Source: Gammaproteobacteria bacterium
Lineage (GTDB): Bacteria > Pseudomonadota > Gammaproteobacteria > JAABTG01
Direction of reading: 5' to 3'
DNA length: 33,403 nucleotides
Assembly: GCA_034522055.1 (NCBI GenBank)
Contig: JAXHLS010000001.1
Span: forward strand, 1 to 33,403
Part shown: piece after piece, positions 23,856 through 30,348 of the stretch
Position numbering within the stretch: position 1 is the stretch's first letter
How the letters are laid out: every line of letters starts with the position of its first letter
The notes under the pieces: model-generated
Seen by the model: the letters and a program-made list of their open reading frames with translations, nothing else
Told to the model about the DNA's origin: nothing
Database searches by the model: none
Position numbers and translations under genes: made by a program

Positions 23856-24125
23856 CTAATGGGCGCCGCTCGCGGTGTCACCATCGCGCGGTTTGTCGGC
23901 GGCTTCCGCCTTGAGACGCTCCACCAACCAGACTTTGATGATTGACTGCCGCGTAACCCCTATTCGCGCCGCTTCACGATCCAGGGACTCGACTACCCAG
24001 GATGGAAAGTCGACATTTATACGCTTTTGCTCCTGGTTGACGCGCCGCGCCGTGGAAAGATCGAGATCATCGATGATGTCTTCTTTACCCTCGTCAACTT
24101 TTTTATCAAAGTCCCCAGCTTTCAT
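23856..24125 (-). CDS. brnA: BrnA-type antitoxin (ribbon-helix-helix)
   Basis: An 89-residue protein whose C-terminal half, KRINVDFPSWVVESLDREAARIGVTRQSIIKVWL, is a ribbon-helix-helix DNA-binding domain of CopG/BrnA type. The acidic N terminus (EGKEDIIDDLDLS) is the likely toxin-binding part. It is preceded by the BrnT toxin gene, with the two reading frames overlapping by 20 bp, the usual toxin-first order of this system. It should neutralise BrnT and repress the operon; an inverted repeat at the toxin start is a candidate operator. Confidence 0.87.
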   Translation of the reverse strand: MKAGDFDKKVDEGKEDIIDDLDLSTARRVNQEQKRINVDFPSWVVESLDREAARIGVTRQSIIKVWLVERLKAEAADKPRDGDTASGAH

Positions 24126-24378
24126 ATAGCTCTACCTCCTTCTTGCGGGAGCGCCTGACAGAAATCAGGCGAATTCTCTCGTCCCTGTACGTGACGACCG
24201 CAGACCAGTGCTTCGCACCGATAAGCCCTACGACGAGGAACCGATGCTCTTCATCGGACTTCGCCCGGATCTCCAGAAGATCAGGGTCTTTCCAGAGTTC
24301 CTGGGCAGCCTGGAAGTCGATCCCATGCTTTTCCAGGTTGGCTTTGCTCTTGTCGTCGTCGAACTCGAAAGTCCTCAT
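24106..24378 (-). CDS. brnT: BrnT-type toxin
   Basis: A 90-residue protein of the BrnT ribonuclease-toxin family: FEFDDDKSKANLEKHGIDF at the N terminus is the family hallmark, followed by FLVVGLIGAKHWSAVVTYRDERIRLISVRRSRKKE, including the conserved strands and the IRLISVRR(A/S) segment. BrnT blocks translation by RNA cleavage under stress. The start ATG 24378 lies within an AT-rich stretch unlike the GC-rich surroundings, a sign of acquired DNA. It overlaps brnA. Confidence 0.92.
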   Translation of the reverse strand: MRTFEFDDDKSKANLEKHGIDFQAAQELWKDPDLLEIRAKSDEEHRFLVVGLIGAKHWSAVVTYRDERIRLISVRRSRKKEVELYESWGL

Positions 24379-24818: not shown

Positions 24819-25364
24819 CTAAGGAACGGCCCCGGCGAGTGCCCGGGCCACTTCGTCGTGGCCGGCGCGCTCCGCCAGGGTGGTGGCGGTATCGCCGCCC
24901 TGGTCCGCGAGTTCGACGTTGGCCCCCCGTTCCACCAGCAGGGTGGCGGTGGCGGCATGGCCGTTGGCGGCGGCCGCCATCAACGCCGTGCGGCCGCGGG
25001 CGTTCTGGGCATCGGGGTCGCCGCCCTGGGCCAGCAGCAGGCGCAACGCCTCGGCATGGCCGTGGCCGGCCGCCTCCATGATGGCGGTCTGGCCGCGCTG
25101 GTCCGCGAGGTTGGGATCCGCCCCCTCGGTGAGGAGTATCCCCACCACCGTGGCGTTGCCGTAATAGGCGGCCGCCATGAGAGCCGTGCGGCCCGCGGCA
25201 TTGGGCTCGTTCACCACGGCCCCACGCATCACCAGGTCCTTCACCTCCTCGATACGGCCGTCCCGCGCGGAGGCCATCAGCGCGGTCTGGAGGTCGGGCT
25301 GGGCGACGGCGGCGCCGGCCAGAAACAGCAACGGAAGGAGCAGCCGGCAGCTTCGTACCATCAT
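24819..25364 (-). CDS. Secreted ankyrin repeat protein
   Basis: A 181-residue protein with a signal peptide (about 1-21, ending AGAAVAQ) and four to five ankyrin repeats from residue 26 on; repeated marks are GRTALMAAA, GQTAIMEAA and GRTALMAAA with LL..GADPN-type turns. It should be periplasmic and bind a protein partner. It starts 4 bp after the CBS-domain gene, preceded by GGTGAGG, so it appears to be the last gene of the DUF1538-PII-CBS operon. ATG 25364 or 25361 (tandem Met) can serve as start. The partner is unknown. Confidence 0.88.
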   Translation of the reverse strand: MMVRSCRLLLPLLFLAGAAVAQPDLQTALMASARDGRIEEVKDLVMRGAVVNEPNAAGRTALMAAAYYGNATVVGILLTEGADPNLADQRGQTAIMEAAGHGHAEALRLLLAQGGDPDAQNARGRTALMAAAANGHAATATLLVERGANVELADQGGDTATTLAERAGHDEVARALAGAVP

Positions 25365-25368
25365 GGCC

Positions 25369-25770
25369 TCACCACTTCATGCCCTTCAGCACCAGATCCG
25401 TGAGGCTGACGATGCCCACCACCTCGCGGTCCTTGACCACCGGAGCACGGGACAGCTCGAAGCGGGTGAACAGCCGAGCACAGTAGCGGATGGCCATGTC
25501 CGGAGGCACCGTGAGCACCGGCTTGCAATGGATCTCGTAGACATTGATACGGTCGGGGGCGCGATCCTTCGCCAGCACCTTGCGCGCGATGTCCGAGATC
25601 AACAGCATCCCCACCTCGTCGTGCTCGTCCCGCTTCTGCACGATAAGGCACTTGGTCTCCACGTGCTTCATCTGCGCCAGGGCCTCGGCCACCGTGGCCA
25701 TGCCATCCACCACGTCGAAGGAGGTCTTCATCACCTCCGACACCTTCGTGATCCGACCCTTCTCAATCAT
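25369..25770 (-). CDS. CBS-domain pair protein
   Basis: A 133-residue protein made of two CBS motifs (about 10-60 and 75-130) and nothing else. The segments KVSEVMKTSFDVVDGMATVAEAL, GMLLISDIARKVL and GIVSLTDLVLKG are typical, and such Bateman modules bind adenine nucleotides (AMP, ATP, c-di-AMP or SAM). Its ATG 25770 overlaps the stop of the PII-like gene (ATGA), so the two are translationally coupled. It probably reports energy state to the DUF1538 membrane proteins upstream; this is inference from context. Confidence 0.9.
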   Translation of the reverse strand: MIEKGRITKVSEVMKTSFDVVDGMATVAEALAQMKHVETKCLIVQKRDEHDEVGMLLISDIARKVLAKDRAPDRINVYEIHCKPVLTVPPDMAIRYCARLFTRFELSRAPVVKDREVVGIVSLTDLVLKGMKW

Positions 25771-26117
25771 AGCTCGCTCTCCACGGTTGCTCTCAGAAGC
25801 TCCGCCTGATGGGCCACACCCACCGCATCCTCCACATCCACCTGGAAGGCGATGCCCGTACCCTTCTTGGCGGTGAACTCGCCGATGTCCATGATGGTCT
25901 CGAGGATGCGCCGGCTCAGGTGCTCCTCCACCAGGAACAACAGCACGTCCCGCTGGGTGGTCAGATTAAGACCGAAAAAGGTCTTTTCCTTCTCGATGCC
26001 TTCCCCCCGGGCGCTGTTGATGACGGTGGCGCCGGTGGCGCCAGTGTCCCGCGCCGCCTTGAGTACCGCATTCGTCTTGGAGTCATCCACCAGGGCGATG
26101 ATCAGCTTGAAATGCAT
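25767..26117 (-). CDS. PII-like signalling protein
   Basis: A 116-residue protein with the ferredoxin-like fold of the PII superfamily: MHFKLIIALVDDSKTNAVLKAARDTG, a T-loop region with RGEGIEKEKTFFGLNL, then RDVLLFLVEEHLSRRILETI and KKGTGIAFQVDVEDAVG. It lacks the uridylylated tyrosine segment of GlnB/GlnK, so it belongs to the PII-like group that senses nucleotides or other signals beside transporters. The start is ATG 26117, set by GGAGG 8 bp upstream; a longer frame to 26144 is less likely. It follows the DUF1538 pair by 139 bp and overlaps the CBS gene. Confidence 0.85.
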   Translation of the reverse strand: MHFKLIIALVDDSKTNAVLKAARDTGATGATVINSARGEGIEKEKTFFGLNLTTQRDVLLFLVEEHLSRRILETIMDIGEFTAKKGTGIAFQVDVEDAVGVAHQAELLRATVESEL

Positions 26118-26256
26118 ATCGACAACCTCCGTGACGTGGACCACGCCGGATTCACTTTTTCCATGCCACCCTTTCCGGGCTTCGGCGCCCGTGGGAGCAC
26201 CCCGTCAATGACAATCAACCGCCGCCTCCCGATCTCGCATCGTTCATCCCGGGGCA

Positions 26257-27036
26257 TCATTCAGCGACATCTCGGGACCGCGCCCGCCATTCCGTGATCT
26301 GGGCATAGCCCATCACGGTCATGATGGGAAACATACAGGCGAAGGCGATGAGCCCGAAACCATCCAGCAGGGGGCTGCGTCCCGGCACCGTGGCGGCGAG
26401 CCCCAGCCCCAGGGCCGTGACCAGGGGCACCGTGACCGTCGATGTGGTCACCCCGCCCGAGTCGTAGGCCAGGGCGATGATTAGCCGCGGTGCGAAGAGG
26501 GTCTGCACGATCACCACCACGTAGGCGGCCATGATATACCAGTGCAGGGGCGTGCCCGTGACGATGCGGTAGGTGCCGAGGGCCACGCCGAGGCCACAAC
26601 CCAGGGCCACCGCCACCCGCAGCCCCCATGAGCGGATGGCGCCGCCCGACACCTCCTGGGCCTTCATGGCCACGGCGATGAGGGCCGGTTCGGCGATGGC
26701 GGAGGCGAAACCGATGGCCAGGGCGAAGAGATAGACCCAGTAATAATCGCGCCACCGCACCGCCTGGGAGACGGCCGCGCCCGCACCGTGGATGAATTCC
26801 GGGTCCGTGAGCTGGCGGGCCATGATCTCCCCGAGGGGAAACAGGGCCTCCTGCAGCCCCACCAGAAACAGGGTCAGCCCCACCAGCACGTAGATGAAGC
26901 CCGCCAGCACCTGCGCCGGGTTGGCGATGGGCCGGCGCAGTACCAGGAACTGGAAGACGAAGATGATAACCACGATGGGCAGCACGTCCCAGACGGTGGA
27001 CAGGCCGGTATCCATGAGGGTGCGCAGGGTCTCCAT
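26257..27036 (-). CDS. DUF1538 membrane protein, second copy (UmpB-like)
   Basis: A 259-residue protein with about seven hydrophobic segments. It shares with its upstream neighbour the conserved stretches EPALIAVA, [20 protein letters not shown] and DGFGLIAFA, the signature of the DUF1538 family. Pairs of such proteins (UmpA/UmpB) have, as I recall, been reported as a sodium or potassium/proton antiporter in a halophile. The start ATG 27036 directly follows the stop of the first copy with no gap. Downstream are PII-like and CBS genes. Transport function is plausible; the ion is not known from sequence. Confidence 0.88.
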   Translation of the reverse strand: METLRTLMDTGLSTVWDVLPIVVIIFVFQFLVLRRPIANPAQVLAGFIYVLVGLTLFLVGLQEALFPLGEIMARQLTDPEFIHGAGAAVSQAVRWRDYYWVYLFALAIGFASAIAEPALIAVAMKAQEVSGGAIRSWGLRVAVALGCGLGVALGTYRIVTGTPLHWYIMAAYVVVIVQTLFAPRLIIALAYDSGGVTTSTVTVPLVTALGLGLAATVPGRSPLLDGFGLIAFACMFPIMTVMGYAQITEWRARSRDVAE

Positions 27037-27771
27037 TCAGTACACCATGCCGTAGGCCATAACGAACATCATAGGGGTCAGAGAAGCGAAGGCGATGAGA
27101 CCGAAGCCATCCACCATGGGATTGCGACCCTCGATGCTGGAGGCCAGACCGACGCCGAGGGCCGTCACCAGGGGCACGGTGATGGTGGAGGTGGTGACGC
27201 CGCCGGAGTCGTAGGCGACGCCGATGATCTCCTTTGGGGCGAAACCGGTCATCACCACCACCCCCAGATAGCCCCCGATGATCAGGTACTGGATGGGCCA
27301 GCCCCTGATGATGCGCAGCACACCCATGACGATGGCCACCCCCACCGCCAGGGCCACGGTGTAACGCAGCCCGCTGGCATAGGCATCGCGGGCCTCGTCC
27401 GTGGCCGCGATGACCCCGCCCGCCGCCGCCACCTCGGCGGCCTTGCGGGCCACCGCGATGAGGGCGGGTTCCGCCACCGTGGTGCCGAAGCCGAGGGCGA
27501 AGGCGAAGAGCAACAGCCACGGCAGGCTGCCCTTGCGGGCGAAGGCATGAGCCATCGCCTCCCCCAGGGGGAACAGGGCCATCTCCAGCCCGCGGATGAA
27601 CAGGGTGAGCCCCACCACCACCAACAGCGTCCCCACCAGGATACGGCCGAACTCGGGGATGGGCTGCTGCAGCACCAATAGCTGGAAGCCGGCGATCACC
27701 AGCAGAATGGGCCCCAGGTCCCGCGCGCTGCTTGTCATGGCCTGCAGGAAGCGCAGGAGCCCTTGTGTCAT
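27037..27771 (-). CDS. DUF1538 membrane protein, first copy (UmpA-like)
   Basis: A 244-residue inner-membrane protein of the same family as the next gene, sharing about the same topology and the motifs [37 protein letters not shown] and [13 protein letters not shown]. The two probably form a hetero-complex. It opens an operon of five genes on this strand (DUF1538, DUF1538, PII-like, CBS, ankyrin). The short gap to the divergent protease gene (27772-27845) must hold both promoters, but none matches consensus well enough to annotate. Confidence 0.88.
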
Positions 27772-28980: not shown

Positions 28981-30348
28981 ATGGAGACCGTGAAACCGCT
29001 GCTCGAATCCGTGTCGGGCTTCGTCTGGGGGCCGGTGATGCTGGCCCTGCTGCTCGGCGTAGGCATCTACCTGACGGTGGGCCTGCGCTTCATGACCTGG
29101 CGCGGCATCGGCGGGGGCTTCCGCAGCCTGTGGCGGGGCCGGCGCTCCGACGAGGAGGGGGACATCACCCCCTTCCAGGCCCTCATGACCGCCCTGTCCG
29201 CCACCATCGGTACCGGCAACATCGCCGGCGTGGCCACGGCCATCGCCATCGGCGGCCCCGGGGCGGTGTTCTGGATGTGGATAACGGCCCTGTTCGGCAT
29301 GGCCACCAAGTACGCCGAGGCCGTGCTGGCGGTCCACTACCGGGAGACCGACGAGCGCGGCATGCATGTGGGCGGCCCCATGTACTACATCAGGAACGGC
29401 CTCGGGCGTCGCTGGCAGTGGCTGGGCCTGCTGTTCGCCGTGTTCGGCATGGTGGCGGCCTTCGGCATCGGCAACACCATCCAGTCCAACTCGGTGGCCG
29501 ACACCGTGGCCGCCAACTTCCATGTACCCACCTGGATCACCGGGCTCCTCCTGGCCGTCCTGGCGGGGGCCGTGATCCTGGGCGGCATCCGCCGCATCGC
29601 CGAGGTGGCGGCGCGGCTGGTGCCCTTCATGGCCATCGCCTATTTCCTGTGCGCCCTGGTCATCATCGGGCTCCAGGTGGACCAGGTGCCCGCCGCACTC
29701 GCGACCATCGTGGGCGACGCCTTCACCGGCACCGCGGCGGCCGGCGGCTTCGCCGGCGCCAGCATCTGGATGGCCATCCAGTTCGGCGTCGCCCGCGGCG
29801 TGTTCTCCAACGAGGCCGGCCTCGGCAGCGCCCCCATCGCCCATGCCGCGGCGCGCACCCGGGATCCGGTGCGCCAGGGCACCATTGGCATGCTGGGCAC
29901 CTTCATCGACACCATCATCATCTGCACCATGACGGCCCTGGTGATCGTCATCTCCGGCGCCTGGATCACCGGTGAGACCGGAGGCCCCCTGTCTGCGGCG
30001 GCCTTCAACGCCGGACTGCCCGGGGGGCGCTACGTGGTGAGCATTGGCCTCATCATCTTCGCCTTCACCACCATCCTCGGCTGGAGCTACTACGGCGAGC
30101 GTTGCGCCGAGTTCATATTCGGCGTGCGGGTCATCCTGCCCTACCGGCTGCTGTGGATCGTCGCCATCCCCCTGGGGGCCCTGGCCGCCGGTGAGAACGA
30201 GGGGGTGAACCTGCTGTGGCTGCTGGCGGACGCCATGAACGGCCTCATGGCCGTACCCAATCTCATCGCCCTGGCCCTGCTGTCGCCGGTGGTATTCAGC
30301 CTCACCCGCCAGTACCGCGCCGCGCGCTCGGATGAGACGCGCCCGTGA
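28981..30348 (+). CDS. Sodium/alanine (or glycine) symporter, AGCS family
   Basis: A 455-residue transporter with about ten to eleven membrane segments. Family signatures: GDITPFQALMTALSATIGTGNIAGVATAIA near 60-90, MHVGGPMYYIRNGLG, a central FSNEAGLGSAPIAHAAA and TILGWSYYGERCAEFIFG. It imports alanine, glycine or a similar amino acid with sodium (or protons), consistent with a cell that keeps a sodium gradient. ATG 28981 is preceded by GAGGTAGGGGGGAG. It is followed 66 bp later by nadC on the same strand, but no functional link is evident. Confidence 0.94.
   Translation: METVKPLLESVSGFVWGPVMLALLLGVGIYLTVGLRFMTWRGIGGGFRSLWRGRRSDEEGDITPFQALMTALSATIGTGNIAGVATAIAIGGPGAVFWMWITALFGMATKYAEAVLAVHYRETDERGMHVGGPMYYIRNGLGRRWQWLGLLFAVFGMVAAFGIGNTIQSNSVADTVAANFHVPTWITGLLLAVLAGAVILGGIRRIAEVAARLVPFMAIAYFLCALVIIGLQVDQVPAALATIVGDAFTGTAAAGGFAGASIWMAIQFGVARGVFSNEAGLGSAPIAHAAARTRDPVRQGTIGMLGTFIDTIIICTMTALVIVISGAWITGETGGPLSAAAFNAGLPGGRYVVSIGLIIFAFTTILGWSYYGERCAEFIFGVRVILPYRLLWIVAIPLGALAAGENEGVNLLWLLADAMNGLMAVPNLIALALLSPVVFSLTRQYRAARSDETRP

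Follow-up and report, generated by a model that had tools for sequence, protein, structure and literature searches.

We analyzed a 33,403-nucleotide stretch of DNA from a gammaproteobacterium (positions 1 to 33,403 of the forward strand of contig JAXHLS010000001.1, assembly GCA_034522055.1; hereafter the window) and focused on a cassette in which two adjacent genes for DUF1538 membrane proteins are followed by genes for a PII-like signaling protein and a protein of two CBS domains. These four genes, umpA-umpB-PII-CBS, probably form one module, in which an antiporter of the UmpAB type would be joined to a cytosolic control unit that works through PII docking and adenylate gating. Across the class the A-B-PII-CBS order is found again and again, with genes that overlap slightly, which argues that the arrangement did not arise by chance.

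Results

All genes of the cassette lie on the minus strand. The umpA-type gene (27037-27771; 244 amino acids) and the umpB-type gene (26257-27036; 259 amino acids) both encode DUF1538 proteins (PF07556, 230.2 and 225.9 bits) and abut in frame with a 0-bp gap. An intergenic gap of 139 bp (26118-26256) separates umpB from the PII-like gene (25767-26117), which encodes 116 amino acids from its ATG (PF00543, 44.8 bits) or 125 from an alternative GTG start at 26144. This gene shares an ATGA overlap with the CBS gene (25369-25770; 133 amino acids; PF00571, 63.7 bits), and 4 bp further on begins a gene for an ankyrin-repeat protein with a start that resembles a signal peptide by eye (24819-25364; 181 amino acids; Ank_2, 146.7 bits). 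The Pfam cut-offs are 22.6 bits for DUF1538, 25 for P-II, 24 for CBS and 27.3 for Ank_2, and all five proteins exceed them. Both the coordinates and the Pfam matches thus agree with a preliminary description of this DNA, which had listed five same-strand genes with these same gaps. The 139 bp between umpB and PII exceed the usual spacing, as the median over 199 loci is 5 bp, and a simple scan found no promoter-like site there.

On sequence grounds, the DUF1538 pair belongs to the UmpAB antiporter family, which has received little study. Its best NCBIfam models are UmpA (NF041627, 370.8 bits) and UmpB (NF041628, 352.2 bits), and, like UmpAB of Halomonas zhaodongensis, it consists of two adjacent homologous membrane proteins, both DUF1538; it differs in scoring below the NCBI equivalog cut-offs. 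UmpAB was isolated from a clone that restored growth of E. coli KNabc in salt and is reported to be a two-component Na+(Li+,K+)/H+ antiporter that works over pH 6.5-9.5, with a requirement for coexpression of both genes and coprecipitation of UmpB with UmpA (PMC5484666). The 4.2-kb clone is described as holding four open reading frames, of which umpB is the last, and the text of the paper makes no mention of PII or CBS (PMC5484666). Our searches did not find the H. zhaodongensis umpAB locus itself. The nearest UmpA by score belongs to genome G311 (422.7 bits), the best of 80 other genomes tested, all of which miss the UmpA equivalog cut-off, and its locus (L140) has the order A-B-PII-CBS.

We modeled the fold of UmpAB as one 504-residue chain, reading UmpA and UmpB through the in-frame stop. 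Alignment A5 was used, and alignments A3, A6 and A7 were left out because they misplaced UmpB rows, in full or in part, onto the half that belongs to UmpA. The model (predicted local distance difference test, pLDDT, 76.6; predicted template modeling score, pTM, 0.76) gave no Foldseek match at E ≤ 0.001 and no VIA match with Z ≥ 5 among 998 chains, and the sequence had no match in PDB. Several elevator-type carriers appear among the weak fold rows, and we draw nothing from them.

PF07556 is present in 125 of the 369 genomes in our class sample and in 97 of 271 genera. At least one locus was taken from each of the 124 other DUF1538 genomes (98 top-scoring and 26 remaining), and second and further DUF1538 loci per genome were taken in part. 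We counted linkage with profiles built from the loci, taking a DUF1538 gene as linked if a same-strand PII-like gene lay no more than 400 bp away. This held for 118 of the 124 genomes, so that these genes are linked as in known PII-transporter pairs. Among the exceptions, G036, G199 and G037 run off the contig, in G126 the PII-CBS genes follow only after 1.4 kb, in G057 they come before a fused AB gene, and G287 holds a DUF1538 fragment only. In 104 of the 124 genomes the distance from the PII gene to a CBS gene is at most 60 bp, a limit that leaves out G121 (89 bp).

The same picture emerged from 209 loci, made up of 129 from class genomes and 80 named ones, the latter being the top 80 of 578, among them loci from Vibrio, Colwellia, Methylophaga, Thiobacillus and Sedimenticola. 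A same-strand PII-like gene is found in 199 of these loci; in eight the sequence stops at most 500 bp from the DUF1538 gene, and two are without it (L178 and L207). A and B are separate genes in 174 loci, with a median gap of -4 bp, and the PII-CBS gap is likewise -4 bp in 145 of the 182 loci that hold both genes. PII is present in 76 of the 80 named loci, the other four being cut by contig ends, and PII together with CBS in 74, where contig ends cut five of the remaining six.

Looking beyond the class, we found DUF1538 in 116 of 299 genomes of a phylum sample. A PII-like gene is present in 28 of 29 loci from this sample, 20 of which also have a CBS gene within a short flank; these 29 are new loci from the top of the ranking, except that L315 had been counted before, and seven are from the same class. 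No PII-like gene occurs at L331 in the 695 bp of sequence available behind umpB. In a plasmid collection nine records matched, and our counts rest on the five that are annotated among seven examined. In each of the five, the gene that directly follows DUF1538 is labeled "P-II family nitrogen regulator" (two from Alphaproteobacteria and three from Clostridia, for which plasmid records are our only evidence). The order is therefore class-wide and the DUF1538-PII pair extends across phyla, which goes against the restriction to close relatives that the preliminary description had named as grounds for dropping its proposal.

The cassette also varies in form. In the Clostridia loci the DUF1538 halves are fused in one protein and the PII protein has 222-224 amino acids, while some other loci with fused AB have a PII protein of 384-405 amino acids. 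Long PII proteins of this kind (222-405 amino acids) stand behind DUF1538 at L210, L212, L193, L196 and L199, and those of L212 and L196 contain two P-II stretches. At L195, L200 and L201 a small second gene behind the PII gene looks PII-like by eye and is not confirmed by Pfam, and at L302 such a gene scores 20.2 bits with P-II, under the cut-off. Locus L352 (3496-7687) carries two cassettes in tandem in the order fused AB-PII-CBS-PII-A-B.

The P-II profile score (44.8 bits against a cut-off of 25) and the predicted fold together place the window's PII-like protein in the PII superfamily. Its monomer model (pLDDT 76.7) has the strand and helix order of PII. The best Foldseek match is 3lf0 (E 2.1e-6), and all 50 rows shown are PII proteins, with template modeling scores of 0.5-0.6 by query length; VIA aligned the model to 3lf0_B with Z 12.2 over 94 residues (root-mean-square deviation 2.7). 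The protein is expected to be a trimer. A PDB profile search with the family gave 9p1x as its best match (27 bits), and the best single-sequence match was GlnB-1 (17 bits, E 0.046), whose loop is five residues longer.

The T-loop spans approximately residues 36-52, carries the motif RGEG...TFFGL and is predicted to be flexible, with pLDDT below 50 at residues 38-52. Across 50 sequences, A36-R37-G38-E39-G40, T46, F47 and G49 are nearly invariant (entropy ≤0.14 bits), the loop tip at 41-44 is variable (1.7-2.7 bits), and the tail of the protein has a mean entropy of 1.88 bits. In the proteins from Alphaproteobacteria and Clostridia, too, the loop begins with (R/K)-G-x-G. Residues 36-55 of the window protein contain no tyrosine, the T-loop tyrosine being the uridylylation site of the classic GlnB/GlnK PII proteins. 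There is also no cysteine in the 116 amino acids, and hence no Cys-bearing C-terminal R-loop of the SbtB type.

The window's CBS protein matches PF00571 in two stretches, which correspond to two CBS domains. The motif G-h-x-S/T-x-x-D, the nucleotide motif of AMP-type CBS pairs, is present in the second. The closest solved relative is the chain CBS-CP12 (5nmu), with 82 bits over residues 8-129 and 129 bits by family profile; the window protein differs from it in having no CP12 tail and another gene partner. CBS-CP12 has been reported to bind AMP (PMC9406205).

We also searched the class for the PII-like family using a profile of 35 sequences (A1) at E 1e-6. It matched 112 of 339 genomes, 109 of which are DUF1538-positive; the 16 DUF1538 genomes outside the 112 either were not in this smaller sample or have a PII gene that is too divergent or missing. 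We found no DUF1538 in the other three matching genomes, G102, G194 and G320. The contig of G102 ends 120 bp upstream of the PII gene, the match in G320 begins at the first base of its contig, and the PII-CBS genes of G194 sit on a contig of 3.1 kb whose 1.4 kb upstream of them holds no DUF1538. In the phylum sample, the profile matched 120 of 299 genomes. Because relatives without DUF1538 exist, the subfamily is mostly, and not exclusively, linked to DUF1538.

Such unlinked PII-like genes have varied neighbors, including SH3-domain and ETF-QO genes (by Pfam at L334) and, by eye, MutS and Dus/NtrBC. A PII-like gene stands beside SH3-domain-like and ETF-QO-like genes at L334, L335, L337-L340 and L353 (family f208), where Pfam was applied to L334 only. 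At L297 (6033-8415), a stretch with no DUF1538, a PII-like gene lies 58 bp before a Na_H_Exchanger/TrkA_N antiporter gene. At L296 (5403-7433) a ligand-gated-channel gene is followed by two PII-like genes, with a BCCT transporter gene adjacent on the opposite strand.

The ankyrin gene is a lineage-specific accessory and not part of the core. A phmmer search with its protein found matches in 6 of 101 loci (the window, L145, L096, L139, L076 and L089), at one of which, L089, the gene lies more than 600 bp behind the CBS gene; besides the window, an ankyrin gene is directly downstream of the cassette in only 3 of 209 loci. We therefore rejected it as a core component, and no other downstream gene is conserved, since the most frequent gene to come next on the same strand, at no more than 150 bp, is of an AmpD-like family (by eye) and occurs in just 23 of 209 loci. 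A second umpA-umpB-PII-CBS-ankyrin set exists in the window's own genome (C2, approximately 3,031,900-3,034,840; L145, 2899-5837). It is in pieces over several frames, through either decay or assembly error, and the ankyrin gene travels along with it.

Just downstream of the window's ankyrin gene is a BrnT toxin gene (24106-24378; 87.8 bits) with a BrnA-like partner recognized by eye (23856-24125). On the other side, a sodium:alanine symporter gene (28981-30348) diverges from the cassette, and an AGCS-like family (by eye) is found upstream on the opposite strand in 21 of 209 loci.

Discussion

From the identity, order and linkage of these genes, the PII fold and T-loop, and the kinship of the CBS protein, we infer a complex, its ligands and a control whose sign could be either. 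The PII-like protein, as a trimer, would use its T-loops (RGEG...TFFGL) to dock on UmpAB from the cytosolic side, and adenine nucleotide bound to it would open or close the transporter. The CBS protein may sense AMP and either modulate PII docking or act on UmpAB itself. Adenylate sensing by both proteins would tie an ion exchange that consumes the proton gradient to the energy charge of the cell. A PII trimer further predicts that UmpAB is itself a trimer of heterodimers, with matching symmetry. The preliminary description had proposed a regulated ion-transport cassette with the ankyrin protein as one of its parts; the UmpAB family assignment and the conserved order favor the cassette, and the sparse distribution of the ankyrin gene speaks against that protein as a conserved part.

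Fixed linkage of a PII gene to a transporter gene, together with a T-loop that is conserved yet flexible, also characterizes AmtB-GlnK and SbtA-SbtB, and we assume control of the same kind for UmpAB. In AmtB-GlnK a PII protein likewise gates a membrane transporter, and the proteins whose fold our model matches include GlnK of the AmtB-GlnK structure 2ns1, although the transporter is a different one and the window's loop is without the uridylylation tyrosine. The SbtA-SbtB system, which is not known to have a CBS partner, also differs in its transporter family and in the Cys-bearing C-terminal R-loop of SbtB, which the window protein does not have. It is similar in placing the transporter gene beside a PII-like gene and in the docking by the T-loop that we propose, as the T-loops of SbtB are reported to enter the cytosolic cavity of SbtA in a complex favored by AMP (PMC10117731). 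We count the PII-like gene before the Na_H_Exchanger/TrkA gene at L297 as an independent pairing that supports the proposal.

Several observations weigh against this proposal. The window's UmpA and UmpB fall short of the equivalog cut-offs (370.8 against 490 bits and 352.2 against 500), so transport of the same cations as the published UmpAB is not assured. That UmpAB was active in E. coli without PII or CBS genes, which implies that the two proteins are dispensable for activity (PMC5484666). The CBS gene is missing from the Alphaproteobacteria and Clostridia that we saw, from L289 (Magnetococcales), which has PII without CBS, and from 12 of the 15 fused-AB loci among 32 stretches of lower-scoring class genomes, all 12 of which have PII. 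The nucleotide motif of the CBS protein is altered in part of 24 aligned relatives and is degenerate there. Mean entropy in the T-loop is only slightly lower than in the folded core (0.83 versus 0.97 bits), and profile matches of the family to SbtB chains reach only E 0.15, which is no close match. Finally, in 18 of 20 stretches picked as seemingly unlinked, the PII-like gene has no DUF1538 in the stretch, with L345 and L350 among the 18 being cut just upstream.

The module might be a regulated transporter of another cargo, for instance bicarbonate, with the PII-like and CBS proteins reporting carbon or energy state in the manner of SbtB. The sub-cut-off scores of the window pair and of UmpA in all 80 genomes are compatible with this, as are the reported regulation of carbon metabolism by CBS-CP12 and the precedent of PII acting on SbtA (PMC10117731). 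However, the sole measured members that we found are reported to move Na+, Li+ and K+ against H+ (PMC5484666), and a related PII-like gene sits beside the Na_H_Exchanger antiporter at L297, so we regard another cargo as unlikely. We give somewhat less credence to mere coexpression, in which the PII-like and CBS proteins would act elsewhere, on metabolic enzymes or transcription, with the common operon serving only to time their expression. Relatives without DUF1538 that neighbor nontransport genes fit such an explanation, as does the PII-CBS contig of G194, but the pairing with DUF1538 is kept across phyla and through rearrangements (fused AB, the tandem of L352 and the PII-CBS-AB order of L190) while the outer neighbors vary.

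Two further explanations concern the signal. An ordinary GlnB/GlnK protein reading 2-oxoglutarate would link transport to nitrogen state, consistent with the Pfam P-II match, the GlnK-like fold and the position of some relatives without DUF1538 upstream of Dus-NtrB-NtrC-like genes (by eye). Yet the T-loop has no tyrosine to uridylylate and is five residues shorter than that of GlnB-1, which makes nitrogen control improbable. The combination of a PII-like and a CBS protein also mirrors DarA and DarB, the PII-like and CBS-type receptors of cyclic di-AMP (c-di-AMP). DarB is named as a c-di-AMP target protein (PMC8822347). A DAC domain (PF02457) was absent from all 16 cassette genomes searched, including the window's own, in a search that was positive in 11 of 14 control genomes; because of this absence we rejected c-di-AMP as the ligand and hold its control of the cassette to be very improbable.

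Returning to UmpAB gated by PII and adenylates, we tentatively extend the proposal, at slightly less than even odds, to DUF1538 as a whole: a family of PII-gated cation/proton antiporters from Gammaproteobacteria to Clostridia, many with a CBS protein as second sensor, built as trimers of UmpAB heterodimers that each sit under a PII trimer, with similar PII control having passed to an unrelated Na_H_Exchanger antiporter in at least one lineage. If so, we know of no earlier antiporter family that is gated by PII. Accounts of how antiporters maintain Na+ and pH homeostasis usually turn on pH, ion level and expression. Pairing of PII proteins with transporters is known as such. We found no description of the link to DUF1538 in the literature searched, which did not extend to subscription papers and preprints, and PII, P-II and CBS have no mention in the DUF1538/UmpAB papers PMC12093952, PMC10030654 and PMC13255231.

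If the proposal is true, the assays of UmpAB to date were made in the absence of its likely regulators, and a PII subfamily that databases label "nitrogen regulator" would gain a likely role. Antiporters would join the known transporter partners of PII-type proteins, those for ammonium and bicarbonate, and a widespread antiporter family would be gated by the metabolic state of the cell.

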